From positions 1 to 48,760 of IMG/VR virus record IMGVR_UViG_3300037840_000235: a DNA stretch of 48,760 nt. The stretch is one strand, 5' to 3'. This stretch comes from a virus. The translations under genes were made by a program, and so were the position numbers. Under the pieces are notes generated by a model. The model saw only the letters and a list, made by a program, of their open reading frames with translations. It was not told the DNA's origin and made no database searches. This document shows, piece after piece, positions 1 through 26,607 of the stretch (position 1 is its first letter; every line of letters starts with the position of its first letter).

Positions 1-1899
1 AACAATCTTGTCCACCGAGTTGTAGTGTTGATGGGCAACTGAGACTGAGGAGGTGCCGGTTGAGTAGTAGTTGTAGGTAGAGGGGTAGCCGGATTCATCC
101 AGCACCTGCCACTTAGGGGGAAACCAGTTTCCGGCTGAGGATGGGCCTATGATTGGTAGAGAGACAAATCCTTGTGAGGGGTAGGTGATAAGTGCCGGGT
201 CGTTTTCGATGTAGAGGGAGAGGAAAGTCCAGCTACCGCCCCCCTTGACATAGATCGAGTATTTGGAGCCTTCGCAGTTAAGGTGCTCAAAGGTAGAGTA
301 GCCACCTTGGATGGCGCGGAAGCAGAATCCGACGGCGGTGGGAAACCCTACCAGAGTCTGGTCGCTAGCGTTGAGGTTCATCACCCCTGCGTAATTGTTC
401 GAGTAGGCGTTGCTGCCTATGAAGAGGGAGCCGTGGCGGGTGCCAATGCTGAAACGCTCAAAGTTATTGTAGCAGTTGCATCCGGCGTTAAATATGCCGA
501 TGCCCAGGTCGCCGCCTCCGGTCAGGTCGGCAAGGGTGTTATCGACGAAGACGGCGTTGGTGCCCTTTTTGATCAGCCAGCCGCCAGATATAATGGCGTA
601 TGGAGTGTACATAGGCCATGCCGGAGTGGGGGTTTCCGAGACGACGCCAGTAACCGCGATGTGTAGTTGAGTGGCGCTAGAAGCGATAACGGGGAAGAAG
701 CCTTCTGAGTTTTGGCCTATGAAACCCCATACCCCTACTTCCGTACCGACGCAGGCGTTGGCGGCGCAGGTTGTAGGCGAGGCAAGGCCGGTGGCTGAGA
801 ATGTACCGTCAACAATGGTGTCGCCAACGTATATTTCTACGGTTGAGGTGCCGGAGCATGTTGCTGTGCCGTTGGATAAGGTGGCGCTGACGTTGCCAGT
901 GCCGTAGCCGCTGCTCCCGGCGGTTATGACCAAGGGAGTTCCGGGCTGAATATAGTTCGTTTTGGTGAGAGCCACCGTGCCTGTGGCTCCTAGCGCCCCG
1001 ATAGCCAGGTTGCAGGTTTGACCAGCAGACCCTGTGACTGCGCTATACCCTATGTAGTATCCGGCGGTAACCACGGTGCCGTTGGTGGTTGTAGCCACAT
1101 CGGTGACGGGCATGGAGATGGCTGCGGAATTGGTGCCTACCATGTATACGTGGCTAAGCTCCAAGCTGCTGGTTGTGTCGTATATGCCGATTAGAGGGGT
1201 TGTGGAGTCTCCGGCCTGACGGTTGAGCGTCCACGTGCCAAGCGCCGGGCCGGAGATGGTGCCCCCTTGCGGCGGCGGTATGAGCGATATGCCGTTGGCT
1301 AGAGAGGTGGTGCAGGCGCACATTTGTACGACGCTGCCGGTAGGCCAAGTGGGGCTCTGTGAGATGGTCAGACTCTTGCCGTTGTAGGCGCGGTAGTCGT
1401 AGGTGCAGGGGCCGGAGGAGCATTTGGCAATGGCGGCCAAGGTTATGGCGTAGAGGTCGGTAGAGGCGGAGTATTGGGAGGGGTCAATCACCGTGCTTCC
1501 GTTGCCCAGGTTGCCGCTGCTGCTACTACCTACCGCCCCCGCCAATCGTTGGTCAACTTGCAGGTAGGGAGTGATACCGGGGCCGTAGAATTGCAGAGAA
1601 TAGACGGTAGTGGTTGAGGCGTAAAAGTGCCAGTTGCCGTTGCCGTCTGCGGTGATTGGGTTAGAGCAACCGTTGAGGCCGTTGCAAGGGGTAGAGCCGG
1701 TAGAGTCGGTGTAGGTGGTGGCTAAGGGCGAGCAGGGCACGGTGGAGGAGCCCATGGTGGCGGGTTGGGTGCAGACGGAGATCAGGGCACCGGGTTGAGG
1801 ACGCCCGCTGTAGCCGAGCGCGATACCGTCCATGCGACCCACTTGGGCGTATGTGAGAGAGGGCAAGAGTAAGAGAGCGAACAATCGCAACCATTTCAT
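1..1899 (-). CDS. Tail spike / receptor-binding protein with signal peptide, partial (cut at window edge)
   Basis: Reading from ATG at 1899 the frame stays open for 633 codons to base 1, so the C-terminus is missing. An AGAGG ribosome binding site precedes the ATG. The protein starts with a charged, hydrophobic leader (MKWLRLFALLLLPSLTYAQ) that looks like a Sec signal peptide cleaved after AYA/TYA-Q. Residues about 20-110 form the same small domain as in the next spike gene (RxDGxAxGxSGRPQPGA, CSPLATxYTDST, ADGNGN, YGPGITPY), a module typical of phage fibre N-termini. The rest is Ser/Thr/Gly/Asn-rich with paired Cys, like a beta-helix or beta-rich receptor binder. It lies 12 bases downstream of the 901-residue spike gene. 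Role as an adhesin is inferred; no enzyme motif is visible. Confidence 0.75.
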   Translation of the reverse strand, partial: MKWLRLFALLLLPSLTYAQVGRMDGIALGYSGRPQPGALISVCTQPATMGSSTVPCSPLATTYTDSTGSTPCNGLNGCSNPITADGNGNWHFYASTTTVYSLQFYGPGITPYLQVDQRLAGAVGSSSSGNLGNGSTVIDPSQYSASTDLYAITLAAIAKCSSGPCTYDYRAYNGKSLTISQSPTWPTGSVVQMCACTTSLANGISLIPPPQGGTISGPALGTWTLNRQAGDSTTPLIGIYDTTSSLELSHVYMVGTNSAAISMPVTDVATTTNGTVVTAGYYIGYSAVTGSAGQTCNLAIGALGATGTVALTKTNYIQPGTPLVITAGSSGYGTGNVSATLSNGTATCSGTSTVEIYVGDTIVDGTFSATGLASPTTCAANACVGTEVGVWGFIGQNSEGFFPVIASSATQLHIAVTGVVSETPTPAWPMYTPYAIISGGWLIKKGTNAVFVDNTLADLTGGGDLGIGIFNAGCNCYNNFERFSIGTRHGSLFIGSNAYSNNYAGVMNLNASDQTLVGFPTAVGFCFRAIQGGYSTFEHLNCEGSKYSIYVKGGGSWTFLSLYIENDPALITYPSQGFVSLPIIGPSSAGNWFPPKWQVLDESGYPSTYNYYSTGTSSVSVAHQHYNSVDKIV

Positions 1900-1911
1900 A
1901 GTGGGTAGCCT

Positions 1912-4617
1912 CTAAAAAGGCGCAGCGGTGACAAATATAACATCAGAGTTGGTCCAGTTGGTGGCTGAGTAAGTGGTGCCGTAGTTGGTTAGTGTGCAGG
2001 AGGTGGCTGAGTTGGCGGTTTGGGAGACGGTGGCGGCGCGGGTGGTGTTTGTGGCTTGGCAGAACCAGCCAAATGGCGCGATGCCCGGCAGAGTGATGAC
2101 GCCGGTGCTGCCTGCTCCGCCGGTTCCCACGGTGACTATGAACGAGCTTGGGCCGTTAGCAAGGGTTACTGAGCCAGTGTTGAAGCCAGAGGCGACGGCG
2201 GGAGAGATTCCGCAGGTTCCATTGTCGCGGAGGCCGGAGACGTTGATAGAGGATGAACTGGTGTAGCTGATCAGGGTGGCCCCGTTAGAGCAGGAGGCGG
2301 CACCGGAGATTTGCCAGCCATAGGCTCCCACGGCGGCGATTCCGGTGAGGCCGGAAAGGTTCAGCAGGTCTAGGCCCACGTCAAGGAAGCCCCCGCTACC
2401 ATCGATACAGATGCGCTTTGAACCGACGCCCCCGGCCTCGGTGTGGGTGACGATGTGCGCGTAACCCGCAATGATTCCGCAGCCCAGGGTGTTTGCCGCG
2501 AGGTTAAAGTTGCCGCCGGATACAAACATTTCAGAGCAATTCGTATCGCATATGATGCCGTTGACGGTGCCAAGGCTTATCTGCGGGTTGTTAATGTAGA
2601 CTTGGTTTGAGTAGCTGCTGGCGAGGCCGACGCCGCCGCTTCCGCCGACAAACATCGCGCCGTAGCCGGGGGATTTGTCAAAGGATGGCGGATACACGTT
2701 GCCGGTGGCGGTGGCGGTGATGGTGTAGGGGCCAGCGGCTTGACAGTGGGCGACGAGATGGAGAGTAGAGGCGGATAGGCCCAGGTAGACGTTGAAGCAG
2801 GTTTCGGGGGAGGTTGGGGTGTGAGAGGCGAGAGCGATTGAGCCGTGAATGGTGCCGCCTACTATGGAAGATACGGCGGTTCCGGTCAGCGTTTCGTGTT
2901 CGGTAGGGTCGTTGTCAGAGATAGCGACGTAGTAGGTTGCGGCGGAGAGCGAACCGCCGGTGGTGGCGGGGGTCAGGGCAGGGGTGGTAGGCGCGACGGT
3001 AGCCCCGCGAGAGAAACCTTGGAAACCTACGTTGTTGAGGACGGCGTAGCTGACGTTAGGGACGAAGAGGCCGCCGCCGCAGTTGCCGTTAGGGTCGCGG
3101 AAAGTTACGTTGTCAAACTCAACGCCTAGGTAGGAGGCGGTGCCAAGGGTGCCGACTTGGAATGGCACTAGGTTTGCGGTGTAGCAGTCTAGGTAGACGG
3201 TTGAGAGGTTGGGGGCTCCGGTACCAGGGCCGCCGCCAACCGTGCCTTGGCCGATAAAGCGGGTGCCGGGGGGGCAAGTCACTGCGCTGGTAAATCTATA
3301 CGCGCCCTGCGGCAGGATAACCGCGCCCCCGACCGTAGCGCTATTGGCCGCGCACGCCGCCGTGAAAGCCGCGCCACTGTCGGCGGCGTCGGTAGGGTCA
3401 GCGCCAAAGGTCACTACGTTGGGCATCCCCTTACTACTAATGCTGCCAGTGAGGGTAGAGAGGTTGCCGGGGAAGCTGAGGTTGCCCAAGTTGTTTATGT
3501 AGAAGGCCGCGACGCCTGAAGAGATAGGGTCGGTGAGGTTGGTGGTGGACTGGTAGATGCCAAAGTCGCCCAAAGCTAGTTGGTTGACGGCGATAGCGAA
3601 GTTGCGGGCGGAAGCGTTGGCGGAGTTGGTGAGAAGGCGGAGAGCGGGGTTTTGGACGCCAAAGAGCCGTAGGAGGTCCGCGCTGCCTCCCCCGATACCA
3701 ACCTCGCTGGTTGATTGGATCGTACCAAAGCTAAATACGCCTTTGTGGTAGGAGGGGTAGGTGTTGTTGGCGTAGATGTTGAAGCCGGTAGCTACGGTGC
3801 CTACCGCCGGGTTAAATAGTGCTCCGTACCAAGTGCCTACCGCCCCCGCCCCCTGCTGTGTCGGGGTTAGTTGGATGCCAATGAGTTCGGTAGCTGTACC
3901 GCTAGAGACAGTGGGGGCGGCGGAGAATCCCGCTAATATAGTGGCAGTGCCTGAGCCTGCATAGGTCGGGGCGGCGGATACACCGGTTTCGGCTAAGATG
4001 TTTGCGGTACCGGCGACGGAGCTATTAGCGCCTAGCCCGGTGAACTGCTGATTAGCCACCACGTTGTTTTGGGTGTAGGTTGAGAATAGTTCGGCGTCAA
4101 AGCAACTAGGGGCGGAGCCGCAAGAGGGGTTCGTGATGGAAGCGCCGATAGTGAGGCCGTAGGTTTTGGAGGTGGGGTCAAAGAGAGCACCAAGGGCAAG
4201 GGGCGGCGTTACCACGCCCGCAGTGCTGATTTGTTGGTCAACTTGGATGTACGGTGTGATGCCGGGGCCGTAGTATTGAAAGGTGAAGGGACCGGCGGCG
4301 GGGTTGTAGTAGAGGTGGTAGTTGCCGTTGCCATCGGCGGATAGGGGGTTCGAGCAGCCGTTAGAGCCGGTGCAGGCTGTGCCTAGGGTAGAGTCGGTGT
4401 AGAGGGTGGCTAGGGGCGAGCAAGGGAGGAGGGGCACATAGACCCCGGCCACAAGATGGGTGGTGGTGGCGGGTTGGGTGCAGACGGCGATCTGAGCGCC
4501 GGGTTGGGGGCGGCCAGATTGCCCAAACGCTACCCCGTCCCGGCGCACGCCTTGAGCATAGGAGAGGGCGGGAGGGAGAAGGAGGAGGAGAGCCGCGAGT
4601 TGAAAGAAGCGCCGCAC
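1912..4617 (-). CDS. Tail spike with pectate-lyase-like beta-helix domain and signal peptide
   Basis: 901 residues from a GTG start that overlaps the upstream stop (TAG/GTG share one base); a GAGG site precedes it. The order is: signal-peptide-like leader ending SYAQG (residues 1-22), fibre N-terminal domain (about 23-130), a Gly/Ala-rich region, then at about 395-470 a GMPNVVTFGADPTDAADS stretch followed by ILPQGAYRF. This is the usual start of a Pectate_lyase_3/right-handed beta-helix domain in depolymerase spikes. The last 90 residues (from about GFNTGSVTLANG) look like a separate beta-structured C-terminal domain. The likely role is surface-polysaccharide binding or cleavage during adsorption. 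The N-terminal domain is duplicated in the downstream spike gene. The leader peptide is odd for a protein expected to assemble in the cytoplasm. Confidence 0.8.
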   Translation of the reverse strand: MRRFFQLAALLLLLPPALSYAQGVRRDGVAFGQSGRPQPGAQIAVCTQPATTTHLVAGVYVPLLPCSPLATLYTDSTLGTACTGSNGCSNPLSADGNGNYHLYYNPAAGPFTFQYYGPGITPYIQVDQQISTAGVVTPPLALGALFDPTSKTYGLTIGASITNPSCGSAPSCFDAELFSTYTQNNVVANQQFTGLGANSSVAGTANILAETGVSAAPTYAGSGTATILAGFSAAPTVSSGTATELIGIQLTPTQQGAGAVGTWYGALFNPAVGTVATGFNIYANNTYPSYHKGVFSFGTIQSTSEVGIGGGSADLLRLFGVQNPALRLLTNSANASARNFAIAVNQLALGDFGIYQSTTNLTDPISSGVAAFYINNLGNLSFPGNLSTLTGSISSKGMPNVVTFGADPTDAADSGAAFTAACAANSATVGGAVILPQGAYRFTSAVTCPPGTRFIGQGTVGGGPGTGAPNLSTVYLDCYTANLVPFQVGTLGTASYLGVEFDNVTFRDPNGNCGGGLFVPNVSYAVLNNVGFQGFSRGATVAPTTPALTPATTGGSLSAATYYVAISDNDPTEHETLTGTAVSSIVGGTIHGSIALASHTPTSPETCFNVYLGLSASTLHLVAHCQAAGPYTITATATGNVYPPSFDKSPGYGAMFVGGSGGVGLASSYSNQVYINNPQISLGTVNGIICDTNCSEMFVSGGNFNLAANTLGCGIIAGYAHIVTHTEAGGVGSKRICIDGSGGFLDVGLDLLNLSGLTGIAAVGAYGWQISGAASCSNGATLISYTSSSSINVSGLRDNGTCGISPAVASGFNTGSVTLANGPSSFIVTVGTGGAGSTGVITLPGIAPFGWFCQATNTTRAATVSQTANSATSCTLTNYGTTYSATNWTNSDVIFVTAAPF

Positions 4618-5963
4618 TAGTAGCCTCGCTTGAAATCTTTGTATTGGTGGGGCTCCGGCAGCCCGCTCCTTTTAAGCCCCATCGCCGGAGCCAAGCGAAC
4701 CATATCAGGGTCGCCTTGGTCAAGCGCAAACTGTCTGACATCCTTGGGCCATGTCCAAGGGTCACCACCATAGCGGGCGCGTATATCCGCAAAGCCCTTG
4801 GGCGGGTTACCAGCAGGTTGAATGATGCGACCGGTTGCCGCTTGTCCGGGTTGCGTAATAGGTGATGGCTCAGGAGGCGCTTCCGGTCGCTGTGGTATGC
4901 GCGGCTGCGGCGGCGCATGGGGCACCGGGGTTGGCGTAGCCTCAACCGGCTGCGGTATTCGGCGCAGCGGGGGTGCAGCGGGAACGGGTGTGGGTACCGC
5001 CTCAACCGGCTGCGGTATACGCTGAAGTTGCGGCGCTGGCGGTACAGGCGTAGCGGGTTCGTACTGTGTGAAGCGGGAGGCCGGAAAGGGCCGCGATACG
5101 TCTGTGGTTTTAAAAGGCGTTGGTTTAGGTGCTGGCTGACCGCCAGCGCGGAACGGTTTGCCGCCTTGGGTGAGCCTCGGTTGCTGAGTGAAGCGGGCGG
5201 GCGCGGCCCCTTCGCTAATTGGTGGTTCGACGCCAAGGTAGCGGGAGGCTGCAACCGGAGTTGGCGGTTTGAAATCAGGGTAGCGGACAGAGGCCGGGGG
5301 CGCGGGCGGCTCATACCCTCCCCACCGCCTTAGCGCCGCCCCTCCGCTCTCAACGCCTCTCGCTAACGCATCACCAGCGGCCGCTCCTGCAACTGTGCCA
5401 ATGTACGGCGCTTCCGGTACGCCGTGAAGCATTGCCCCGGTCTTAGCGCCTCCCAGCGCCCCTATAATATTTGCGGGTGTTACGCCGACGCCCCGGTAAC
5501 GCAGGTTACCGATTGGCGTACTGCCCAAGCGCCCGGCGTTTTCCATCACCGCCCCCGCGCCGCGAGCTACCGGCTTACCGCCAGGGGCCATCATCATGGC
5601 GGCGGTTGAGGTGCCTAGCCCGGCTAGTTCGGGTTTGATGGTTGACAGGGTTGGGCCTAGTTTGGAGGGGTGAGCAGCCATATCTGACCAGTAGCGGGCG
5701 GTGTCAGGCAAAGAGCGCAGGGTGCCGACCGTGTTTGCCAAGGGGCCGAGGCCGGGCACGGCCATCTCCGCCGCGCCGGTTGCGGCCTCGCGCCAATTAG
5801 TTGGCAGGCCCGCGCCGCGAGCGAAGCGGGTGGTAGTTGATTCAGCAGGCGGAGCAGCAGGCTTAGCAGCAGGCGCAGGGGTGGTAGGCGGAGGCGTAGC
5901 GGTGCCAACCGGCTTACCCCATTCCGAGCCATCTTCTACCGGCGTACCCCATTCATCGGCCAC
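4617..5963 (-). CDS. Pro/Ala-rich internal virion (ejection-type) protein
   Basis: 448 residues from GTG 5963, with GGGGAG about eight bases upstream; it overlaps the end of the 587-residue gene by 11 bases. Residues 1-45 are Pro/Ala-rich. Residues about 50-210 are Gly/Ala-rich and hydrophobic with small-residue zippers (GALGGAKTGAMLHG, VAGAAAGDALARG). Residues 290-385 are a tandem Pro-rich repeat built on P-Q-P-V-E-A-x-P-T-P-V-P. The C-terminal 60 residues are more ordered. Small-residue-rich segments that could cross membranes, together with its place between the internal proteins and the spikes, fit an ejected core or DNA-transfer protein. No family is recognised, so the role rests on position and composition. 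Confidence 0.55.
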   Translation of the reverse strand: MADEWGTPVEDGSEWGKPVGTATPPPTTPAPAAKPAAPPAESTTTRFARGAGLPTNWREAATGAAEMAVPGLGPLANTVGTLRSLPDTARYWSDMAAHPSKLGPTLSTIKPELAGLGTSTAAMMMAPGGKPVARGAGAVMENAGRLGSTPIGNLRYRGVGVTPANIIGALGGAKTGAMLHGVPEAPYIGTVAGAAAGDALARGVESGGAALRRWGGYEPPAPPASVRYPDFKPPTPVAASRYLGVEPPISEGAAPARFTQQPRLTQGGKPFRAGGQPAPKPTPFKTTDVSRPFPASRFTQYEPATPVPPAPQLQRIPQPVEAVPTPVPAAPPLRRIPQPVEATPTPVPHAPPQPRIPQRPEAPPEPSPITQPGQAATGRIIQPAGNPPKGFADIRARYGGDPWTWPKDVRQFALDQGDPDMVRLAPAMGLKRSGLPEPHQYKDFKRGY

Positions 5964-7716
5964 TTGGTTGCTCCCCTTCTACCCGTTTCCAGTCAGCGGG
6001 CGGCGGCGTCGTGCCTTCGTGAACCTTACCGGTGCGCGGGTTGATAGCGCGGTAAACTTGCGGCGCGTTTGCCGGGTTGCTGCCCGCCCCCGCCCCGCCA
6101 CCCACGCCTAGCGACTTTCCCCTTGCTTCCAAATCGTCCGCGTACGCCCCGATCTCTCCCAGGGCCGCTAGCATATTCTCGGGCGAATCCTTCCCCTGGT
6201 CCAAAATCTGCTTAAACTCGTCGAGCATGATGCCGCTGCCCCTTGACCCCACGTGCATCTTAAGGAGGGCGGTACGCATCAGGATGGTATCCGTTTTGAG
6301 CTTGGCGTATTCGGGGTTTGGTGCGCCGACCTCGCCGCTCCAAAACTGTTTCCAGCGGCCTTGCAAGGGGCCTAGCCCATTCGCTTCCTGCTCCGTCAAC
6401 TTCTGGATGCGGTCTACAAAACCCTTGACCGTCGGAGCCATTTCAATCATCGTGCGGGTGGGAGAGGTGAGTTGCTGTTCCTTAGCGGCGGTGACTTGGC
6501 CCTGATGCGCCCACTGCGCCTGCCGCGCCTGATCCTGATGCGCAAACCCTCTCTCCTGGTTAGCTTCCTGCCTTGCCGCTACCCTATTCTCATGATCCTC
6601 CACAAACTGCTCGCGGCTGCCGCCAGGGTGGCTTTTCTGCCAATCCTCAAAAGTCTGCTCCTCAAACGTCGGTTTAGCAGGAGCTAGCGGCCGCGCACCC
6701 GCCTCGCGCACCGCCTGATACGCTTTGAGTGCGTCGCCGCCGTTCGTTTTGAGCGCCGTATTGAAAGCTTGGTCTTCCGGCGTAGCTTCTTTGGGCGGCG
6801 GTGGGTTATTCAGCCGGTTGGTTTCCGCCTCGTTGTGGCCCGCCTGCGCCCCTTTGAGCTTGTTCTCAACCACGTCGTTGGCCGCTTGGCGCTGATCCTG
6901 TTGCGTCTGCCTTTGCGCCGCCTGCTCTCTCTGCTGTTCTCCCACCTGCTGCTGATACTGTTGCTCAAGCCGCTGATGCGGCTCAACGTACAGCTCGTTG
7001 CGGATTGCTTCACCAAGAGCAGGAGATTTGAAAGCCCCGGCCCCGACCGCTAACGGAGCCACCCACTTGCGCCAGCCAGTTGGGGCACCAGCGTTGGGTG
7101 TAGGAGGCTGCAACGCCGGGGGCGGTGTAGGCGCGGCGGCGGTGGTAGCAGCCTCAGCTAAAGGCGGTCGCGCTGTCATGGCGCGGGTTGCAGGCGGTAA
7201 AACGGCTAAGGCGGCGGGCACAGGTTGTGGTGGTTGCCCCGGTGCGCCCCCCGCTCCCGCAGCAGGAGGAGCAGGCGCAGCGGCAGGAGCTACGGGCGCT
7301 GACGGAGGAGACGGTGCGGCAGCGACCGGGCGCACCGGGGCAACCCTTTGGGTGGGAGTGGGCGGAGGAAGCGCCGGGTGGCCTTGCTGACCAAGCGGCC
7401 CGGCGGGTTGCTCTGGATGACCTTGTTGACCGAGCGGGCCGGGGTATTGGGCGGCGATAGGAGTTGGTGCGTGGCTGGGAACGGGCGCGATTGGGGCAGC
7501 GGGCGGAGCAAGAGAGGGTACGGGAGAGGGGTAGATGGGGGCTTGCGGGGGCGGCGTACCTTGGACGCGGGTGACGGAAGGGCGGTAGGGTTGAGGGATA
7601 GGGATATTGGAGGGTGTGGGCAGAGTTAAGGGGATTTGCACCGGAGCAAACCGCCGCTTCTGGTCCTCGCCATCGTCACCAAACTGTACGCCTTCAAAGC
7701 CTTCAAAACCGCCCAT
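5953..7716 (-). CDS. Internal virion / DNA-transfer-type protein with Pro-rich N-terminus and coiled coil
   Basis: 587 residues; ATG at 7716 with a GGAGG site. The first 220 residues are Pro/Ala/Gln-rich and contain a duplicated PLGQQGHPxxP unit (near residues 95-115). Residues about 240-330 are Gln/Glu/Arg-rich coiled coil, as are about 370-415. The C-terminal 150 residues carry a stretch I recall from podoviral structural proteins: an N-P-E-Y-A-K-L-K-T-D segment, then M-H-V-G-S-R-G-S-G. It sits in the row GNAT-like, 184-residue, 587-residue, 448-residue protein, where T7- and P22-type phages place internal core or ejection proteins. The low-complexity N-terminus makes exact homology uncertain. 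Confidence 0.6.
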   Translation of the reverse strand: MGGFEGFEGVQFGDDGEDQKRRFAPVQIPLTLPTPSNIPIPQPYRPSVTRVQGTPPPQAPIYPSPVPSLAPPAAPIAPVPSHAPTPIAAQYPGPLGQQGHPEQPAGPLGQQGHPALPPPTPTQRVAPVRPVAAAPSPPSAPVAPAAAPAPPAAGAGGAPGQPPQPVPAALAVLPPATRAMTARPPLAEAATTAAAPTPPPALQPPTPNAGAPTGWRKWVAPLAVGAGAFKSPALGEAIRNELYVEPHQRLEQQYQQQVGEQQREQAAQRQTQQDQRQAANDVVENKLKGAQAGHNEAETNRLNNPPPPKEATPEDQAFNTALKTNGGDALKAYQAVREAGARPLAPAKPTFEEQTFEDWQKSHPGGSREQFVEDHENRVAARQEANQERGFAHQDQARQAQWAHQGQVTAAKEQQLTSPTRTMIEMAPTVKGFVDRIQKLTEQEANGLGPLQGRWKQFWSGEVGAPNPEYAKLKTDTILMRTALLKMHVGSRGSGIMLDEFKQILDQGKDSPENMLAALGEIGAYADDLEARGKSLGVGGGAGAGSNPANAPQVYRAINPRTGKVHEGTTPPPADWKRVEGEQPSGR

Positions 7717-7719
7717 CGG

Positions 7720-8274
7720 TTAGCCTCCCCCCAGCGTTCCCAAATAAGCGCCCCCGGCGGAGCCTGCCGCGCCCAGTGCGTTTCCTAGCAAACCCATCCA
7801 AGCGTTGTTGGCGGAGGTGGTGGCGTTGACATTGGGGGCGACGAGGCCGCCTTGGCCCACACTGGCGTTAGCTTCCTCGCCGCTCAGGTTGTAGAGGCCG
7901 CCAATACCCGCCATCGTGTTTTGGTTTTGGCGGTTAGCGAAGTATTGTTGCAACCCGCCTTCCGCTCCGCCTACCGCCTGTCCCTCTTGTTGCGCTAACT
8001 TATCCTCGTTGGCGGTGACCCCGGCGGCGTTGCGGGTGGCGGCGGCTCTATTCTCACCTGTCTGCCGGGCGGTGTCAAAGGGCGCGGCGGTAGCGGCTAA
8101 GGTGGCGTTGGTCATCCCCTCCTGCTGCTGCATCGGCACGCCTTCGTTAATCATCCCTGTATACAACCCTTGCAGCGCCGTCTGGTTCTGCGCCGCCGCC
8201 GCCTGCTCCGCCGAACTATTAGCAACTGAGTTCTGCGCCTGCTGCTGCGATATCCCGCCCGCGCCCCTAGCCAT
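7720..8274 (-). CDS. Ala/Gln-rich internal virion protein
   Basis: 184 residues. I chose ATG 8274, which overlaps the TGA of the GNAT-like gene by one base (TGATG); a GTG one codon earlier is possible. The protein is rich in Ala, Gln, Asn and Gly and largely helical, with no Cys. It ends in a Gly/Ala-rich hydrophobic tail (from MGLLGNALGAAG onward) like the membrane-active ends of podoviral ejection proteins. Its position directly after the GNAT-like gene and before the 587-residue protein supports an internal-core role comparable to the small T7/P22 internal proteins. No specific family is identified. Confidence 0.55.
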   Translation of the reverse strand: MARGAGGISQQQAQNSVANSSAEQAAAAQNQTALQGLYTGMINEGVPMQQQEGMTNATLAATAAPFDTARQTGENRAAATRNAAGVTANEDKLAQQEGQAVGGAEGGLQQYFANRQNQNTMAGIGGLYNLSGEEANASVGQGGLVAPNVNATTSANNAWMGLLGNALGAAGSAGGAYLGTLGGG

Positions 8275-8681
8275 CACTCACCGCCAATCTGCGAACCGAT
8301 TTGCAAAGCGTACATGGGCCACAATTTCCGCTCCCACCCTAGTTGGAATAGCCGCTTCTGCATCAGGCGCTCAGCGGCGGGCGGAATCAGGGCGTAAGCC
8401 TCGGTGATACCGTGGTCAGCCGCTATGTTTGGCCCCGCTAAGGTTAATAGCTCTAGCCTCTCCATCTTAGCCCGCGCTGATAAGGTAGGGTCAACGAGCA
8501 GGTACAGCTCAGCCGATTTACGCACTAGCAGGGCGGTGTCCGGGCCGTGGCCGTTCTCAACCACGCGGGCGGCGCAGAATTGATCAAGCGAGGGAAGGGC
8601 GTAGTCGAACCCCTGAGCGCGGTGGATAGCGAGGAGCGCGGGTAGGTCTGAGGGTTGGTAGTGGCGGAGGATTGTAGGCAT
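8274..8681 (-). CDS. GNAT-fold acetyltransferase-like virion protein (T7 gp13-like position)
   Basis: 135 residues. The N-terminus (ILRHYQPSDLPALLAIHRAQGFDY) is the beta1-alpha1 opening of GNAT N-acetyltransferases; the centre has LLVRKSAELYLLVDPT and LELLTLAGPNIAADHGITEAYALI, and the end VPxAAxRLMQKRLFQLGWERK-like segment fits the last helix and strand. The canonical acetyl-CoA loop (Q/RxxGxG/A) is not evident, so catalysis is doubtful. GNAT-like proteins without proven activity are known in the internal-virion cluster of T7-type phages (gp13), and this gene occupies that slot. The ATG shares its A with the TAA of the upstream 56-codon gene. Confidence 0.7.
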   Translation of the reverse strand: MPTILRHYQPSDLPALLAIHRAQGFDYALPSLDQFCAARVVENGHGPDTALLVRKSAELYLLVDPTLSARAKMERLELLTLAGPNIAADHGITEAYALIPPAAERLMQKRLFQLGWERKLWPMYALQIGSQIGGE

Positions 8682-8851
8682 TAGCCGGGCCTCTGAGTGG
8701 GGTTGGCGACGTTGGTAGGCGGGGGGGCTTTGAGGTTGCCCGCTTTGACCGCGACGTTAGCGTTGACAAAGGTTTCGACCGAGGATAGAGCCTCGCCCAG
8801 TTTGGGGTTCTCGCGGGTGATCACCGCCTTGTTTGGTACGCTCAAGCTCAT
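8681..8851 (-). CDS. Small conserved-looking structural-operon protein
   Basis: 56 residues (MSLSVPNKAVITRENP to NPTQRPG), ATG 8851 to TAA 8681. Its start overlaps the stop of the nozzle gene as ATGA, and its stop overlaps the ATG of the GNAT-like gene as TAATG, so the three are translationally chained. No membrane segment, Cys or motif is seen. The middle (GEALSSVETFVNANVAVKAG) is predicted amphipathic helix and the end is Pro/Asn-rich. Tight coupling at both ends and codon use like its neighbours support a real gene. Function unknown; presumably virion-associated. Confidence 0.7.
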   Translation of the reverse strand: MSLSVPNKAVITRENPKLGEALSSVETFVNANVAVKAGNLKAPPPTNVANPTQRPG

Positions 8852-15730: not shown

Positions 15731-15739
15731 CCTAGCCTC

Positions 15740-17005: not shown

Positions 17006-17114
17006 AGAGGCAACCCTCCTTAGTCGGTGAATTTAGTTCTTGCCTGTCGTACCATTCACAGACCCCAGGAGGATGACCCCTGCCTACCAAACATCCGGTT
17101 CAGGTCTTACAAAC

Positions 17115-17176: not shown

Positions 17177-17204
17177 AAACTGCTAACGCAGACAGCGGGC
17201 CTCT

Positions 17205-18545: not shown

Positions 18546-18558
18546 AGTTGCGCTCCTA

Positions 18559-21063
18559 TTACACCGCAGTTGGCTGCGGCGGTTTACCATTCACCGGAGG
18601 CTTACCGCCTGCTGACGGTTGCCCCGGCGGCTGCACCACTGGTTGCGGCTTGCTCAACTTATCCATTAGTTTGCCCGCCGCAATATCGTCCATCGTCACA
18701 TGGATGCCCATCTCCGCCAAAGCTTGGATGATCGCGGCGGGGGGCATATCCTTGAGGTTCGCCGTCACACTGGGTTTGACCGGTTGCATCGGCGGCACCT
18801 GCTGCGCCTGTTGCTGCTGCACCACCTGCTTATGCTGCATCATGTGTTGTTTGATAGCTTCGTAGGCTTGGGGGTTTTCGCGCTTCAAGTCTTGGCCGTC
18901 TTGGCTGTTGAGGTAGCGTTTGCAGGTTGCCGCCTCCGCCGCATTGTCGTCTACATCAGGATCGATGTCTACGGGCACCCCCTCCTTCATCTCACTGATC
19001 TCTCTGAGCTGTTTTTGGCGAGCGTCAGCGCCAGGGATTACCAACCCTTCTACCCCTAACAGTTCAACCATCAGCTCCGCATTGTCGGGCTCGGTCATCA
19101 GTTGCTGACCTTGAGGGGTGTCGGCAACCTGTAGCACGGTGGCCCGCTTCTGACTCCAAGTCTCAGGGAAGTTCTCGTCGCCTTCTGGGTAGGCCCGCGC
19201 ATTGCCCTCCAAGGCCGGAACATCAACGGTATCAGCCTCAAAGTCTCCGCTGTCGCTGATTTTCGCCAAGATAACCGGCCCCTGCACATTATCCCGAAAC
19301 ATATTACAGCTCAAAGTCATGATGTCGGCGTGCGCCTGCTTCAACACTCCGTAAGGGATTCCGGTGCGCCCCTTGGCCGCTTCGTTCTGAATAGCCATGC
19401 CCCGAAAGGTGTCGGGGCTACCGGCGGGGTCGCCAACCGCCGCCGGATACAAACCGGTCAACTGTTGGAGAATAGGCCCGCGCATCTCCTCCATATCCTG
19501 CACCATGTCGGGGGAGGCTGAGTCAACCCTGGTGGTCATGATGTTGTCTTGGATACGCTGGCCGTCGCGGAGGTTCACGGTGACATCGGCACCGGGCTCG
19601 CTGCGTTGGGACTCAGGGGCTTGGTCGTCAAAGATTTGGGAGTTTTTGTAGGTGACGGGGAGGCCATATTCGTAGGTTTCGGCCCGGATGTTAGATTCGG
19701 TGTTGTAGCGGTCTTGGACGCTGACGGCGGTAGACCCCCATCCGTTGCGATGCTGCCCATCTCCTGGCATCATGTGGCGCACTACCCAGCACTTGTCCAT
19801 CGATTGGGGGCGCGAGGTGAGGTAGGTTGGGCCAGTGAAGATAGCGAGGCAGCCGTCAGGGAACTTTTGCTCGAACTTTTGTTGGGTTTGCAAATTCTCA
19901 AAGTAGCGGAAGGCGCACTTGCGAAACCACACTCGGGTCTTTGTGCACAAGACCGATAGTGCACCCCCGGTCTGGGTGAGGAGGTTTGCGCCCTCCGCTA
20001 CGCTGAGACGGGCGTTGCGTTCAAACGAGTCATCGGCACCGCTGCTAGCGCCGGGTTTGATTTTGGTAGCGGCCCAAGGGTATTCGTCGCGGAGCTGCGT
20101 ATAGTGCAACTCCTCCGACAGTTCAAGATAGTGGAACTTAGACTGTTCCTTGGCCCACTGCGGCCTACCCATTTCCAAGGCCCCCCACACCGTAATCGTT
20201 TGCTTACCCTTGGCCGGTGCGGTTGGGTCTCCATAACTCATCTCGTCAAATATCGCTGCAAAATCATCTCCGCCTCCGCCTCCGCTATCCGCAGGCGCAA
20301 GATTGTCGCTAGAAAGCATAGTTCCGCATTCAGGGCAAGGTACAGGGGGTACAAAGTGCGAGGCGGGGGCGTGCCACCCGCAGACCTGACAGCGGACCTC
20401 TTCCGTTTCTTCACCACCTTCTTGTCCCACGTCTTGGCTACCATCGCCGCCTCCTGCGCCGCTCTCCGCCCCCTCGTCCTCCTCCTCAAACTCCGTCAGC
20501 AGCCCAACTACCCCGTCGCACCACAGGAAGTATACCTCGTCCTGCATCAGACCTTTGATCGGGTTCCACCGCTCAATCTTCTTAGCTAGCTTGTCGTACC
20601 CTTTGGCGGTTTCGATGTCCCGGTAGTCCTGGGGGTTTTCGGGGTAGAAGCGGTAGGCTGGCGGGGAGCCTGTCACCAGAGCGATAGCGTTGAGCCCGGC
20701 GGACTGGTAGATGTTGGTGACGAATTCAAAATGGGGCATGTCGTCAATGTCGTAGTTGCCGTAGTTGAGCCAAGCTTGGGAGCCGGTTGAGGTGTTGAAG
20801 CATTTGTCGCGGTCGCTCCACCAAATATACTGTTGCGACCGCCAGTACATGCGGTCGTGGGCGCACTCCCTCACTTCCACCATGCGGGCGTAGCGGTCCT
20901 CAGTCTTAAACTTCAAGTATAGCTGGTAGAGCTGCTCCTGAGACTCGGTGTCAGAGGCTAGGGGGTCGCGGGGGTCGCCCTGTTGGTCGGGCTGTTCCTG
21001 CGACCCCGGTTGCGTCTGGTCCGATACGTCCGAGGGTACGGGTTGAGGTATGGTAGTAGCCAT
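18559..21063 (-). CDS. Portal protein with inserted zinc ribbon
   Basis: 834 residues, ATG 21063. The segment FVTNIYQSAGLNAIALVTGSPPAYRFYP (residues about 112-140), the stretch DRYNTESNIRAETYEYGLPVTYKNS (about 470) and PILQQLTGLYPAAVGDPAG (about 560) are portal-like wing and crown elements. The C-terminal 150 residues are Gln/Pro/Lys-rich (HMMQHKQVVQQQQAQQVPP), like a portal barrel tail. Residues about 195-285 are a low-complexity Gly/Glu/Asp insertion carrying CxxC-x14-CxxC (Cys 225, 228, 243, 246), an unusual zinc-ribbon insertion. It forms the dodecameric DNA channel and docks the terminase and adaptor. Confidence 0.85.
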   Translation of the reverse strand: MATTIPQPVPSDVSDQTQPGSQEQPDQQGDPRDPLASDTESQEQLYQLYLKFKTEDRYARMVEVRECAHDRMYWRSQQYIWWSDRDKCFNTSTGSQAWLNYGNYDIDDMPHFEFVTNIYQSAGLNAIALVTGSPPAYRFYPENPQDYRDIETAKGYDKLAKKIERWNPIKGLMQDEVYFLWCDGVVGLLTEFEEEDEGAESGAGGGDGSQDVGQEGGEETEEVRCQVCGWHAPASHFVPPVPCPECGTMLSSDNLAPADSGGGGGDDFAAIFDEMSYGDPTAPAKGKQTITVWGALEMGRPQWAKEQSKFHYLELSEELHYTQLRDEYPWAATKIKPGASSGADDSFERNARLSVAEGANLLTQTGGALSVLCTKTRVWFRKCAFRYFENLQTQQKFEQKFPDGCLAIFTGPTYLTSRPQSMDKCWVVRHMMPGDGQHRNGWGSTAVSVQDRYNTESNIRAETYEYGLPVTYKNSQIFDDQAPESQRSEPGADVTVNLRDGQRIQDNIMTTRVDSASPDMVQDMEEMRGPILQQLTGLYPAAVGDPAGSPDTFRGMAIQNEAAKGRTGIPYGVLKQAHADIMTLSCNMFRDNVQGPVILAKISDSGDFEADTVDVPALEGNARAYPEGDENFPETWSQKRATVLQVADTPQGQQLMTEPDNAELMVELLGVEGLVIPGADARQKQLREISEMKEGVPVDIDPDVDDNAAEAATCKRYLNSQDGQDLKRENPQAYEAIKQHMMQHKQVVQQQQAQQVPPMQPVKPSVTANLKDMPPAAIIQALAEMGIHVTMDDIAAGKLMDKLSKPQPVVQPPGQPSAGGKPPVNGKPPQPTAV

Positions 21064-21246
21064 CTAAGCTGGTTTCGCTCTCTTAACTCTCAGCACGTGC
21101 CGAGGCCCGACAGAGGGTTTGGAGTAGGTGGGCAGCGAAGAGGGGTTAGGAGTCTCCGCTGCCCACTGCTTAGCCTTACCTTGCATCTCGGGGCCAAGGT
21201 AGCCGCCAAACGCCGCGCCCATCTGTTTCTTAGAAGTGAAGGGCAT
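21064..21246 (-). CDS. Small conserved protein upstream of portal
   Basis: 60 residues (MPFTSKKQMGAAFGGYLGPE to RVKRAKPA), ATG 21246; its stop abuts the portal ATG. The MPFxSKxQxxAAFGGYLGPE start and the K-x-W-A-x-E-T-P continuation are a pattern I recall in small proteins next to portal or terminase genes of podoviruses. The C-terminus is strongly basic. It has no membrane segment. A DNA- or capsid-binding accessory role is plausible, but nothing proves it. Confidence 0.65.
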   Translation of the reverse strand: MPFTSKKQMGAAFGGYLGPEMQGKAKQWAAETPNPSSLPTYSKPSVGPRHVLRVKRAKPA

Positions 21247-21253
21247 TGCCGCC

Positions 21254-23011
21254 TCAGTTTAAAACTTCAACATGCAAATCAAGGAGTTGGGCCGCCGTAG
21301 TGGCTGCGGTTGCCGACGCCAACACTACGTAGAGGTTGGTTTGGTCGGCGGTATCGAGCGAGCCAATAGCGGCGGTTTCCGTCGTGTGCCCAAAGCCTTG
21401 GATCGTGGCCGCGCACCCTGCCGTCAAACACGCTTGCCAGTTGCCGTTGGTCATGATGGTGCCAGCGGAGGCGGAGAGCGCGTTGACGGTCATCGTGCAC
21501 TGGAAGTTTCCGTTATACGCGGCCCCGGTAAACGGGAATAGGCCCAGTATCGTACACACCACTGTCGGCGTACCGGTTGTAAACACCGGCCCTAAGTTAA
21601 CATCGATGGTCCACGTGGCGGTGTTGACGGTGGTGGCGGTGATTTCGCCTGATACCCTAACCGTCCTGCCAATATAGTTCCAAAAGCCCTGGGGCAGCGC
21701 CACCGTACCCAGCACCCCGATGTTGCCGCCGGTGATTGAGCCGGTAGCGGCGAAGGGGCCGTAGTGTTGCTGAAAGGTTGTGGGGCGAGTGGCGGGTTGG
21801 TAGGCGAAGGTGGTGTGCGATTGGAAGACTGGCCCGTAGATGTTGGTGATGAAGGCTAAGGGCCGGAGCATTGTGGCGGTGGTGGGAGTGGCGAATTGAG
21901 CGGCGGCTCCGATAGCGCAGGCCGGATACATCACTTCCAAGGTAGAGAGGGTGCAGTTGGCCGAGGAAATGGGGAGCAGGTAGGCTGTGTTGAGGGAGGT
22001 GATGCCCGCGTAGGCACGCCAGCCCACCGCGCCGGGAGAGGCGGCGGGGGAAGCGTAGTTTATGTTAACGGAGGCGGTGGCGGTGAAGTTGTAGGTTGGG
22101 GAGCAGGGCGACTCGCCACCCAAGATATCGACATAGGTGACGCAGACGTAGTAGGCGACGGCGGCCCACGTAGCGGTAACGCCTCCGACGGAGGTGCCGG
22201 TGCCGGAGATGACCTGGGTAACACCGGCGGTAGCGGAGCGCACGGTCGGGGTGGCGACGGCGGTGAGGACGGAGGGTTGGACGGTGTACCAGGGGGTCAG
22301 CGCCGACGCCCGGTCATCGCGAATATAGACGTAGGGGAAGGGGGTCAGCGCGGCGATAATTCCGGCAGCGGTTTGCGAAGGAAGAGAGACGGCGGCCATG
22401 TTCCACAAGGCGTCAATGACGACGGTGCCCCCGGCGTTTGATAGGTAGGTGGCGTTGCTGAATTCAGCCTGAGACCCTAAATCGTTGATCGCTTCTTGGA
22501 GCCCTGCCGTACCCGACTGCACAACCGCGTCTTGGCCGTGGGTGTTAACGGTGGTTCCGGTGATGGTGACGCAAGGCCCCATCCCTTGCCCGATACCGAG
22601 GTTGCCGGAGGGGCAGGGGCCGACTGTCTCCGCCGTAATCGTTGAGATGACCTCGGCGTTTCCATCGTTGATGAAGATGGGGGTGAAGCCAAGGCCGGAG
22701 GGGGAGTTGGTGGCGGTTTGACCAGAGAAGCCGGGGGGAGCCCAGACGTTGGTTGAGAGCGTGGTGCCGTCTTGGAGAGGAAGGGGCAGGAAGGTGATAG
22801 AGGTGCCCGTCCCTGTCGTTGAGTTGCCGGTGATGATGCGCCCGGTCCACGTGTTGTAGGCGGTTGCGTACACAATTCCGCCCACGCGGTGGAGAGGGGA
22901 AGCGCCTTGGTTAAAAGTTTGCTGAGCAAACAGGGACACCGGAGCAGCCAGGGTTTCAATCCACAACACTGCAATACACAGTTTCGTAAGCCATCCGAAA
23001 GTCTTGCGCAT
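21254..23011 (-). CDS. Secreted-type surface/adhesin protein with signal peptide
   Basis: 585 residues, ATG 23011 eight bases after TAGGAGG. The first 30 residues (MRKTFGWLTKLCIAVLWIET, then APVSLFAQQ) have an n-h-c signal-peptide layout with AxA-type cleavage at LFA-Q. The mature part is Thr/Ala/Gly/Val-rich, all-beta in appearance, with spaced Cys pairs. It lacks recognisable catalytic residues. It lies between terminase and portal in an adhesin/accessory block and is not similar to the fibre N-terminal domain of the spikes at 1-4617. It may be a head fibre, a decoration protein or a host-surface protein. The assignment is compositional. Confidence 0.6.
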   Translation of the reverse strand: MRKTFGWLTKLCIAVLWIETLAAPVSLFAQQTFNQGASPLHRVGGIVYATAYNTWTGRIITGNSTTGTGTSITFLPLPLQDGTTLSTNVWAPPGFSGQTATNSPSGLGFTPIFINDGNAEVISTITAETVGPCPSGNLGIGQGMGPCVTITGTTVNTHGQDAVVQSGTAGLQEAINDLGSQAEFSNATYLSNAGGTVVIDALWNMAAVSLPSQTAAGIIAALTPFPYVYIRDDRASALTPWYTVQPSVLTAVATPTVRSATAGVTQVISGTGTSVGGVTATWAAVAYYVCVTYVDILGGESPCSPTYNFTATASVNINYASPAASPGAVGWRAYAGITSLNTAYLLPISSANCTLSTLEVMYPACAIGAAAQFATPTTATMLRPLAFITNIYGPVFQSHTTFAYQPATRPTTFQQHYGPFAATGSITGGNIGVLGTVALPQGFWNYIGRTVRVSGEITATTVNTATWTIDVNLGPVFTTGTPTVVCTILGLFPFTGAAYNGNFQCTMTVNALSASAGTIMTNGNWQACLTAGCAATIQGFGHTTETAAIGSLDTADQTNLYVVLASATAATTAAQLLDLHVEVLN

Positions 23012-23037
23012 TAGATTATCCTCCTAAATTCGGACGC

Positions 23038-23214: not shown

Positions 23215-23222
23215 GCAGCCTC

Positions 23223-23740: not shown

Positions 23741-23742
23741 AG

Positions 23743-24030: not shown

Positions 24031-24214
24031 GGGCCGCCTCCTTGGCTTTGTGTCCGAGGAACTTTACGATGGTTGAGTGGGCCTCAACCTTTTTCTCGGT
24101 TACGCCTGTGAGAGTGGGTGTGGTTGTCTCCACTGGCTGCAACACGGTAACCACGTGCTCATCAGGGAAATCCTTGCCAGGGGTGATCGCTGCCGAAACT
24201 TTCAAATCGCTCAT
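23894..24214 (-). CDS. Small Ala/Lys-rich hypothetical protein
   Basis: 106 residues, ATG 24214 with AAGGAGG eight bases before. The first half is beta-prone (HVVTVLQPVETTTPTLTGV). The middle is a Lys/Ala/His-rich helix (IVKFLGHKAKEAAHAFAHAI). The end is a low-complexity Ala/Gly/Lys tail. The last 137 bases are shared out of frame with the coiled-coil gene at 23743-24030. No known motif. Position among small late-operon genes suggests a virion-associated or assembly role, unproven. Confidence 0.6.
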   Translation of the reverse strand: MSDLKVSAAITPGKDFPDEHVVTVLQPVETTTPTLTGVTEKKVEAHSTIVKFLGHKAKEAAHAFAHAINTGAHAILPVDVEVKATGSVAKPAAATGAGAGADKSAK

Positions 24215-24288
24215 TGTAGCCTCCTTAGCTTGGTTAGAATTGCTGCTACCGCCTTCTAGACCGCTCCCTCCGCCTTCTGAGCCGTCAC

Positions 24289-24585
24289 CTACGTCGCTAC
24301 CGCCGTGAGGCCAGTGGGGGCGTCGGGAATGGCGAAAGGGATTGTGGCGTTAGCCTCCGCAGAGGGAACTGAGGCCCCGGCGGCGTCCACCGCCTCCACA
24401 TAGTAAAAGTAGGTCTGCCCCTCAACCAACCCTGGGTCGTTGTCAACGTAGGTGGTGGCGGTGATACCCGTAGCCAGCGGCGTCGCATTCTCCTTGCCCG
24501 CCGCTGTACCGCGAAAAACATCGTAGGAGGTGGGGGTGGGGCCGACCGCCGGAGCTTGCCAATTCAAAGTTACAAAGTGTGCCAT
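24289..24585 (-). CDS. Fibronectin type III domain protein
   Basis: 98 residues, ATG 24585, essentially one FN3 domain. VTLNWQAPAVGPTPTSYDVFRG is the A-B-C strand region with the usual buried Trp. TYVDNDPGLVEGQTYFYYVEAVDAAG has the conserved Tyr and the GxTYxYxVxAVxxxG signature. A few residues of a next domain (PDAPTGLTAVAT) follow before the stop, as if the gene had been cut from a longer FN3 array. Free-standing FN3 proteins occur as capsid or tail decorations. Located beside a beta-helix spike gene. Confidence 0.75.
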   Translation of the reverse strand: MAHFVTLNWQAPAVGPTPTSYDVFRGTAAGKENATPLATGITATTYVDNDPGLVEGQTYFYYVEAVDAAGASVPSAEANATIPFAIPDAPTGLTAVAT

Positions 24586-24609
24586 CGCTAACTCCTCTCT
24601 CTCTCTGAT

Positions 24610-26607
24610 TTAATATAGCCTATTCGTCATAACACCGCTGCTGAAGTTGCCGCCGCTGTTGTTGGGGGCCGCCGCTATCATGAGTTGGGAGGCGGTGGTA
24701 GAGGTGCAGCGGGCGGTAAAAGTCACAAGAGCGGATTCAGTCACTATTGCTGTCAGGACCATATGATTATTTTCCACCGTTGCGGTGCCCAAGGTGCCAG
24801 TTGACCAATACCCTTGATCCAAGACATTGGTGCCGTCAAAGAGTTCGCAGGTGAAGTTGGTGGCCGCTGTGACGCTAGTGGTTTGGAGGTCAACAGAGGC
24901 TTTAACCGAGAAGGTTCCGGCGGCGGTTGTGGTCACGGCTGGAAACGTCCCTGACACCGGCGTATAACTGCTGGTTCCCAGGGTAACGTTGCCGGTAATG
25001 AAGTTTGAGAGTGGTGCGGTGAGCACCGACCCAATGCCCGTAGCGGTTTGGTCAAATATGACAAGATCGGTCAGGTAGGCTGACTGCACCCCGCCGCTCG
25101 TGTCCGCGCGAAAATACTCAAAAGCCACGTTGGTGCAATTGGCGGGAACGGTGTAGAAGGTTGCGAAGGTTGTCCAGCTTGTACTTGTGCTGCCTTGAAG
25201 GTAAGATAACGACAAACTGGTGCCGGTGCTGTCTAACCAGTCCAAGGTTAACCAAGGCAAAAAGGTGCCGTCTGACAGAAGCTTAGCAGACATCCATATG
25301 ACATCACCAGGGGTGACTTTGTAATTTTTCAGGGTTGACGCGCCATAGTATTGGGTGGTGGTGGTTATCTTCAAAGACGTGCCGTGGAGGTATGGGGAAG
25401 TAGTGCTTTGGGCTATGGCTGCTGGACCGGCGTTGGTTAATCCCCCACTCTGCCAGCCGCTTGTACCGGCAACAAAGCTACCGTTATCGATGCCGTTAAG
25501 AGCGGAATAGTTCACGCTTGGTATGGTGCTCAGAGGGTCTGACAGGTTTGAGAATGTATTGGTTTCCCACGGTGAGGCCCCATTTCCGTAAGTGTAGGTG
25601 AGCCCGTATATGTAGCCCGAGCCGCTCAGGCAGTTGTTGACCGTGGTGCATACGCCGGGAGAGGCTGCGGCGGTGTTAGAGTAGAAACCGTAGGAGACGC
25701 TACCGTTGTCTGTTTCCGGGTGGCCGGTAACGAAACTTCCAAACAGCGACGAACCGCCATCAAGGAGGAACATGTATTGGGGCGCGGCGGCGGGGGCGGC
25801 GAAGTTGCCGTTTATGTTGATGAAAGAGTTGAATCCGGCGGAAGCGGCCCCGGTAACGTGGAATAGAGAGTCGCCGGAGATGAAGGTGGTAAAATAGATG
25901 TCGCTGAACATGTTGTGCTGGAGAGAGTTAAAGCTGACATCCCCAGCGTCTTGTTGGAGCAGGAAGCCGCTAGTCATGTTGGCGACGGTTACCTTGTCAA
26001 AAACGTCGCGCTCCTCAAAGTAGTTGGCGGCCTCCATCAGCACCGTGTTGTTGCAATTGGTGAGGGATACGTTTTGTACGTAGAGCATCAGGGCGTCGAG
26101 GAGCCAGAGGCCGTTGTTTTGGCGACCGGTGCCGCCTGTAGGGTTAGAAGAGTTGCAGTTGAAGGTTATATCCTTTATGAATTGGTTGTGGTTAGCTACG
26201 TCAAGGTTAAGGTAGTTGCTAACTTTAAGTAGCGCAATGCCGGAGGTGCCGCTCGCGGCCTGAATGGTGCTGGCCCGCCCGCTGCCCAGCACGTTGCAGG
26301 CTCGGTTGGTGATGGTGGTTGGGGTGGCGTTGACAAGGTAGTTACCTACCGGAAAGAACAGGATGCCCCCATTGGCGTTGCAGGCTGCGATTGCCAAGTT
26401 AATAGGGCCGAGGTCGTTGGTGGTGCCGTTTCCGGCTGCTCCAAACGTCTTAACGCTGTAGGTTGTGTAGTTGACGGTAGAGTAGCCGTAGGTGGGACCG
26501 AGGCCGGGGCCGTTAGGGGTAGGGCCTAGCTGCCCTCCGTACTTCATCACCGCTAGCCCGGTGAAGAGTATAGCCGCGAGCGCAAGATATCGGATGTGTA
26601 TTCTCAT
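24610..26607 (-). CDS. Beta-helix tail spike (pectate-lyase-like), leader or anchor at N-terminus
   Basis: 665 residues, ATG 26607 overlapping the upstream TGA (ATGA). Residues 1-24 (MRIHIRYLALAAILFTGLAV) are a hydrophobic leader without a clear cleavage site. At residues 48-120 the motif YSVKTFGAAGNGTTNDLGPI, then GGILFFPVGNYLV is the classic entry to a Pectate_lyase_3 right-handed beta helix. Asn/Ser/Phe-rich rungs continue to about residue 380. A jelly-roll-like domain follows (SLKITTTTQYYGAS, WLTLDWLDSTGTSLS, about 400-530), and the C-terminus holds two Cys. Probable depolymerase or host-glycan binder. It sits close to terL rather than with the other spikes. Confidence 0.75.
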   Translation of the reverse strand: MRIHIRYLALAAILFTGLAVMKYGGQLGPTPNGPGLGPTYGYSTVNYTTYSVKTFGAAGNGTTNDLGPINLAIAACNANGGILFFPVGNYLVNATPTTITNRACNVLGSGRASTIQAASGTSGIALLKVSNYLNLDVANHNQFIKDITFNCNSSNPTGGTGRQNNGLWLLDALMLYVQNVSLTNCNNTVLMEAANYFEERDVFDKVTVANMTSGFLLQQDAGDVSFNSLQHNMFSDIYFTTFISGDSLFHVTGAASAGFNSFININGNFAAPAAAPQYMFLLDGGSSLFGSFVTGHPETDNGSVSYGFYSNTAAASPGVCTTVNNCLSGSGYIYGLTYTYGNGASPWETNTFSNLSDPLSTIPSVNYSALNGIDNGSFVAGTSGWQSGGLTNAGPAAIAQSTTSPYLHGTSLKITTTTQYYGASTLKNYKVTPGDVIWMSAKLLSDGTFLPWLTLDWLDSTGTSLSLSYLQGSTSTSWTTFATFYTVPANCTNVAFEYFRADTSGGVQSAYLTDLVIFDQTATGIGSVLTAPLSNFITGNVTLGTSSYTPVSGTFPAVTTTAAGTFSVKASVDLQTTSVTAATNFTCELFDGTNVLDQGYWSTGTLGTATVENNHMVLTAIVTESALVTFTARCTSTTASQLMIAAAPNNSGGNFSSGVMTNRLY

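Follow-up and report, generated by a model that had tools for sequence, protein, structure and literature searches.

In the textbook view, assembly of tailed phages is wholly cytoplasmic up to lysis. The tailspikes of P22 join the particles last, a step that also proceeds in vitro, and to our knowledge the spikes of P22, Pam1 and Pan3 carry no Sec signal. Cleaved Sec signals do occur on phage endolysins such as Lys44 of fOg44, according to the part of that source used here (PMC6116005). In Bacteroidetes, glutamine (Gln) is usual at position +1 of the signal peptidase I site and is then cyclised, a pattern known as the Q-rule (PMC5837995, used in part), and phages of Porphyromonas gingivalis encode function-unassigned proteins following this rule (PMC10367356, used in part). 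Here we analyse a window of 48,760 bases, IMG/VR virus record IMGVR_UViG_3300037840_000235 (G000, classed linear), which belongs to a podovirus-like phage. An initial annotation had noticed leader peptides on four virion-type proteins, namely the spikes encoded at 1-1899 (spike 1), 1912-4617 (spike 2) and 24610-26607 (spike 3) and a protein at 21254-23011 (family F21254). We give an even chance to the following reading: spikes 1 and 2 and their relatives, which share an N-terminal domain (NTD), would be P22/Pam1-type tailspikes, accompanied by lectin-headed F21254 spikes, and the predicted Sec and signal-peptidase-I signals of both would be functional, such that the proteins are exported and cleaved, form disulfides outside the cytoplasm and probably attach to particles no earlier than at lysis.

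All four open reading frames (ORFs) are present on the minus strand, and the leader strings quoted earlier, LLLLPPALSYAQ and PVSLFAQQ, were found in the translations. Signals were called with a hand-set n/h/c heuristic, the strict rule being a score of at least 5, an h value of at least 1.8 and an n-charge of at least 1. Applied to 16,520 shuffled N-termini, this rule passed 178 (1.1%); applied to 2,673 starts internal to hallmark genes, it passed 1. Spike 1 scores 5.31 (MKWLRLFALLLLPSLTYA|QVG, the bar marking the predicted cut), with a signal peptide of residues 1-18 ending TYA|Q19 (1846-1899), as placed by the heuristic and the N-domain alignment. Spike 2 scores 6.31 (MRRFFQLAALLLLLPPALSYA|QGV), with residues 1-21 and predicted cleavage SYA|Q22 (4555-4617). 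The 21254-23011 protein scores only 3.11 because its h-region contains Glu; its leader ends SLFA|QQ (residues 1-29, LFA|Q30, at 22925-23011, placed by heuristic and relatives), and the relatives have textbook signals. Spike 3 scores 5.37 (MRIHIRYLALAAILFTGLA-VMK) and has a hydrophobic N-terminus, signal or anchor, at 26536-26607. Given the low chance rate of the rule, three of the four leaders are solid predicted Sec signals ending in A|Q, and for these the initial annotation stands; that of spike 3 is signal- or anchor-like and ambiguous. Leaders of the n-h-c type in which positions -3 and -1 hold small residues were found by the heuristic in spikes 1 and 2 and their relatives; in this respect spike 3 is not clear.

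In the alignment of 24 N-domains, Gln occupies the same +1 column, directly after a small residue, in 23 of 23 signal-bearing rows. The caller of cleavage sites is crude; it places A-x-A|Q in 35 of the 41 strict signal-bearing proteins of at least 250 amino acids, compared with a mean of 11.8 and a maximum of 21 in 500 shuffles, and 19 of 41 phage proteins of this size have Gln at +1 under the strict rule. To judge from these motifs, the signals look processed.

The cysteines give a second line of evidence. Even cysteine counts are a mark of exported proteins, and the mature N-domain has an even number in 24 of 24 sequences, with pairs gained or lost together. Cys46 is invariant, and 22 of 24 sequences have Cys66, displaced by one column in a single case; the others are 82 with 88, or the 72-equivalent with 82, or none, and one sequence (L115) has one extra pair. 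Among the aligned F21254 proteins, 13 of 14 have an even count, and cysteines recur at paired columns, for example 190/204, 369/382 and 455/468. The two relatives that have no signal differ: F21254 member L026 is without these pairs, keeping only the column-455 cysteine plus three others, and in spike L114, which counts 2 cysteines among 335 residues, Cys66 is missing. Signal-bearing spikes have a cysteine content of 1.81%; the values are 0.36% for the major capsid protein (MCP), 0.57% for the large tail protein, 0.07% for the scaffold and 0% for p5953 and p7720. The pattern suggests that the cysteines behave as disulfides would.

In order to characterise what lies behind the signal, structure prediction of the N-terminus, which the initial annotation had proposed, was done for residues 1-149 of spike 2 with AlphaFold2 and the 24-row alignment. 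The model has a predicted local distance difference test (pLDDT) of 86.9 and consists of a helix at residues 2-20, in agreement with the signal peptide call, and then a small beta domain. Fold comparison used VIA-align on the 1000 top Foldseek chains. The best matches were the Pan3 tail complex (Z 9.6, root-mean-square deviation (rmsd) 2.2, 81 aligned) and Pam1 (Z 8.6, rmsd 6.5, 94 aligned), with further matches to Sf6 (Z 7.8) and, at rank 7, the P22 tailspike head-binding domain (Z 7.3, rmsd 2.5, 83 aligned). A profile search against 177,635 PDB sequences returned 7eeq_A, 'Tailspike head-binding domain', as top match (E=0.0043) and Pan3 'Tail spike protein' chains as third to fifth (E=0.018). 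Since sequence profile and fold agree, a virion-attachment-like domain appears to begin right after the cleavage site, and the results point to a domain that is phage tailspike head-binding-like and not a host adhesin. It is assigned to residues 22-133 of spike 2 (4219-4554; Cys46, 66, 82 and 88) and, by alignment, to 1525-1845 in spike 1, the two spikes being 62% identical along ~130 aligned N-terminal residues, which include the signal. Among BFVD entries the N-domain has 9 matches with E of at most 0.001, mostly unnamed or pectate-lyase phage proteins.

In the bodies of the spikes, the beta-helix profile PF12708 matches spike 2, where residues 400-459 (3241-3420) form a predicted pectate-lyase-like beta-helix start (E=1.3e-07; phrog_2234 tail spike, E=1.3e-04), and spike 3 (665 amino acids), where residues 51-235 are pectate-lyase-like (E=5.5e-11; phrog_7458 tail spike); there is no match in spike 1, and 1 of 18 NTD spikes matches at E of at most 0.01. 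In the 21254-23011 protein, a conserved N-domain and linker with the cysteine pairs (21787-22924) precedes a predicted C-terminal jelly-roll with a TNF-like-lectin fold (residues ~409-585, 21257-21786). The model of this protein is poor overall (pLDDT 56.8) and only the C-terminal fold match was used, which is to the N-domain of BC2L-C (Z 9.6, rmsd 2.6, 118 aligned, at a local pLDDT mostly of 35-76).

We then looked at how the signal is distributed in this family of short-tailed soil phages. Gene by gene, 20 related records including the window were examined (826 called ORFs). Under the strict rule, none of 136 other structural-module genes in these records has a signal (terminase 0/20, portal 0/20, capsid 0/18, tail A 0/14, large tail protein 0/16, six other module families 0/48); for the scaffold the count is 2/16. 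The NTD profile was found in 9 of 23 records, and two scans gave 22 loci, some in records already counted. A signal is present in 21 of the 22, the exception being L114, and in 23 of 24 when both window spikes are included. Relatives of F21254 were found in 13 loci, one of which (L022) is cut before the N-terminus; the signal is present in 11 of the 12 complete relatives, in 12 of 13 with the window protein, and in 4 of 4 from four more records. The exception, L026, begins MANRTRF behind a strong Shine-Dalgarno sequence. In the 20-record survey the strict cut-off passes 7 of 11 F21254 proteins and 5 of 7 NTD/spike proteins. It misses the window protein (3.11), G016 (4.34), G019 (5.68, low h), G020 and G021 (wrong start picks) and G018 (a true absence); in the five other than G018 a leader is visible by eye. 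The two signal-less cases come from G018, a 14 kb fragment that holds L026, and from G038 (L114). The portal of G038 belongs to the same family (E=1.5e-112), and no strict signal appears in any listed ORF over the 39 kb of this record that were sampled. On account of these cases the signal seems to go with the phage, and perhaps with its host, and not with a single gene, although two exceptions are too few for proof. An artefact of gene-start choice was considered and rejected: of 36 starts that yield a signal, 25 are preceded by a weak or better Shine-Dalgarno sequence, which is strong in 13.

Some further leaders were seen in the same records. Scaffold ORFs G013 11140-12534, G021 9224-10675 and G036 29590-30963 open with hydrophobic signal-like leaders, unlike other scaffolds, and a capsid-decoration-like ORF of G039 has a similar leader-like extension. 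In more distant relatives, a further signal-bearing family (YFNAPP.IGL) lies between the capsid-side and tail genes (G008 19552-20550, G012 11367-12428, L009 9382-10389).

The Gln at +1 also bears on the host. On the Granulicella tundricola plasmid NC_015057 (L086-L089, 200 kb), A-x-A|Q is present in 14 of 21 predicted signals (shuffled mean 6.4, maximum 13) and strict +1 Gln in 9 of 21. Gln at +1 thus seems common in the acidobacterium Granulicella, although the Q-rule was described for another phylum. The counts for Cupriavidus (0/3) and Gemmatirosa (2/2) are too few for use. Since +1 Gln is found both under the Bacteroidetes Q-rule and on the Granulicella plasmid, the host may belong to the acidobacteria or to Bacteroidota, both being candidates only. 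The spike N-domain, the portal and F21254 had no match among 50,697 phage records, F21254 had none in plasmids, and for N-domain and portal there were no related loci in genome contigs; tblastn produced 4 weak partial matches for a relative that lacks the signal and 1 for a relative that has it, and two scans of viral sequences came back empty. As these searches returned no isolate or host match, we can only infer the host. The idea that every phage of a Q-rule host has such signals was rejected as a general one, because three sampled Bacteroidota isolates have none by the strict rule in ORFs of at least 300 amino acids (Cellulophaga phi38:1, first 50 kb, 0/12; Bacteroides B40-8, 0/11; Flavobacterium 11b, 0/8).

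The route that we propose is as follows. Spike chains would be exported via Sec during infection and cut at A|Q by signal peptidase I; the exposed Gln would probably be cyclised to pyroglutamate, as under the Q-rule, and the chains would fold outside the cytoplasm with disulfides. The signal-free capsids, portals and tail tubes would be assembled in the cytoplasm as usual, and the spikes would dock onto the particles at lysis. Taken in full as an extracytoplasmic tail completion, with heads and tubes made in a reducing cytoplasm, spikes made in an oxidising envelope, cut by the host's signal peptidase and capped by pyroglutamate, and the halves joined only when the cell lyses, the scheme is tentative, and we would sooner expect it to fail than to hold.

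Several points weigh against it. The signal caller uses hand-chosen weights and is not SignalP, and the leader of spike 3 is without A-x-A|Q. One F21254 member (L032) has no Gln at +1 and another (L027) has 9 cysteines, an odd number. The portal (1.12%) and the terminase large subunit (TerL, 1.18%) are not poor in cysteine, and p13914 reaches 2.64%. The head-binding matches are all remote (E=0.004, Z 7-10); a heme-binding surface protein was second in the PDB profile search (E=0.008), and the fold list includes a transthyretin-like domain at rank 4 (Z 7.6) and CnaB domains at ~7 and below. A mixing of spikes and particles outside the cell looks inefficient, the route gives no account of how the outer membrane is crossed, and the family is known here from sequence records.

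The main rival reading is that the exported spikes act free, stripping or blocking glycan receptors on the surface of the infected cell, or piling up as a soluble depolymerase, with superinfection exclusion or clean release as the outcome and with few or none on the particles. We regard this as unlikely. The same export evidence applies to it, the beta-helix and lectin-like heads suit work on glycans, and a Tat-exported bacterial enzyme with a tailspike fold, WceF, has been published (PMC7949094, used in part). However, the NTD spikes keep their virion-attachment-like domain directly behind the cleavage site. In addition, every identified spike candidate in the window has a hydrophobic leader, so a particle without them would be left with no recognised spike, unless that part is played by the large tail protein. 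The suggestion of the initial annotation that the proteins act outside the infected cell is supported as far as export is concerned, and export need not exclude virion spikes that are finished after it.

Dual localisation through poor export is known for other proteins, and a dual fate, with some of each spike staying in the cytoplasm for the virions by inefficient export or internal initiation and the remainder exported, would square cytoplasmic assembly with a signal. We place it below free action, among the improbable explanations. An internal start with a Shine-Dalgarno sequence after the signal was found in 1 of 36 cases and in 1 of 72 background windows, which is not systematic, and dual initiation was rejected as a general mechanism on these counts; moreover, to judge from the paired cysteines, selection seems to favour the oxidised fold.

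That the hydrophobic N-terminus is an uncleaved anchor, as the initial annotation had considered, or a membrane-active part of a virion protein, is very unlikely. The long hydrophobic stretch of spike 3, and a similar one in G019 19262-21172, would fit, and for spike 3 alone an anchor remains a candidate; but for the main spikes there is no evident reason for an uncut protein to conserve the small residue and the +1 Gln column. The earlier thought that the leaders were borrowed from host adhesins, captured together with their signals, is the least probable of all, for although CnaB pilin and transthyretin-like domains belong to the fold family of the NTD, phage tailspikes are the best matches by profile and by predicted fold, the genes lie within a conserved structural module, and this phage family also has a version with no signal (G038).

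The gene layout of the window is that of a tailed phage. Its minus strand encodes TerL (27145-28791; terminase match phrog_2, E=2e-23), portal (18559-21063), MCP (15740-17005; phrog_14242, E=6e-06), tail genes including a large tail/virion structural protein (8848-12591, phrog match), and the spikes, and in window and relatives alike the spike genes sit among these members of the structural module. By the heuristic TerL, portal, MCP and large tail protein have no signal, the portal serving as a cytoplasmic virion marker. Portal relatives were found in 17 viral loci, and 13 of 16 further records have a portal of this family. Spike 2 is complete with 901 amino acids. The spike 1 ORF encodes the N-terminal 633 amino acids and runs off the contig; the minus-strand frame at 47986-48759, at the other end (258 codons including the stop), is a homologue of the NTD spikes of G031 (phmmer E=5.6e-61) and G017 (5.6e-38). 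It is probably the C-terminal part of spike 1, the gene of which would be split between the two contig ends. Simple abutment leaves the two frames out of phase, so some bases may be missing, and no terminal repeat was found in the window.

Directly before the spikes (4617-7716, minus strand, in the window), most records have two large cysteine-free proteins, possible ejection proteins. A small protein labelled GNAT by eye (8274-8681, minus strand) is kept beside the tail genes in many records. On the plus strand, 42157-44724 encodes a single protein with a DNA polymerase A domain (E=2e-61) and an N-terminal uracil-DNA-glycosylase superfamily domain (E=8.8e-14); the translation of 32212-32820 shows ADLSGADL repeats and is pentapeptide-repeat-like; and from a start 29 codons into the ORF at 45300-45788 the protein opens MKLSRFWRGYLFGWFLVALFICCVAASC, a lipoprotein-like signal with lipobox.

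If the spikes do pass through Sec, receptor-binding proteins could be stabilised by disulfides, the maturation of the spikes relies on the host signal peptidase, and the annotation rule that a signal peptide means a protein is not of the virion breaks down for a whole phage family. The +1 Gln, as a host-specific mark, may report the host and could help to assign hosts of uncultured phages, and the signal-bearing and signal-less relatives within one family offer a ready comparison.

The nearest published cases each share part of these features. Lys44 of fOg44 is a phage protein with a cleaved Sec signal produced during infection, but it is a lysis enzyme and not a spike (PMC6116005). Nixviridae of P. 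gingivalis encode Sec signals with +1 Gln, seen by the authors as an adaptation to host secretion, on five function-unassigned genes and not on tailspikes, in the part of the report used (PMC10367356). The substrates of the Bacteroidetes Q-rule have A|Q at the signal peptidase I site but are host proteins (PMC5837995). WceF of Pantoea is exported and has a tailspike-like fold, but it is a bacterial gene with a Tat signal, and the part of its description used here makes no mention of a head-binding domain (PMC7949094). In the open PMC literature, judged mostly by titles and abstract openings, no report of Sec signals on tailspikes was found. Like the tailspikes P22 gp9, Pam1 and Pan3, the present spikes have a predicted N-terminal head-binding-like domain, and spike 2 also has the predicted beta-helix start; unlike them, they have a predicted Sec signal and paired cysteines. 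This comparison suggests proteins that are tailspikes by domain and that take an unexpected, apparently unreported route.

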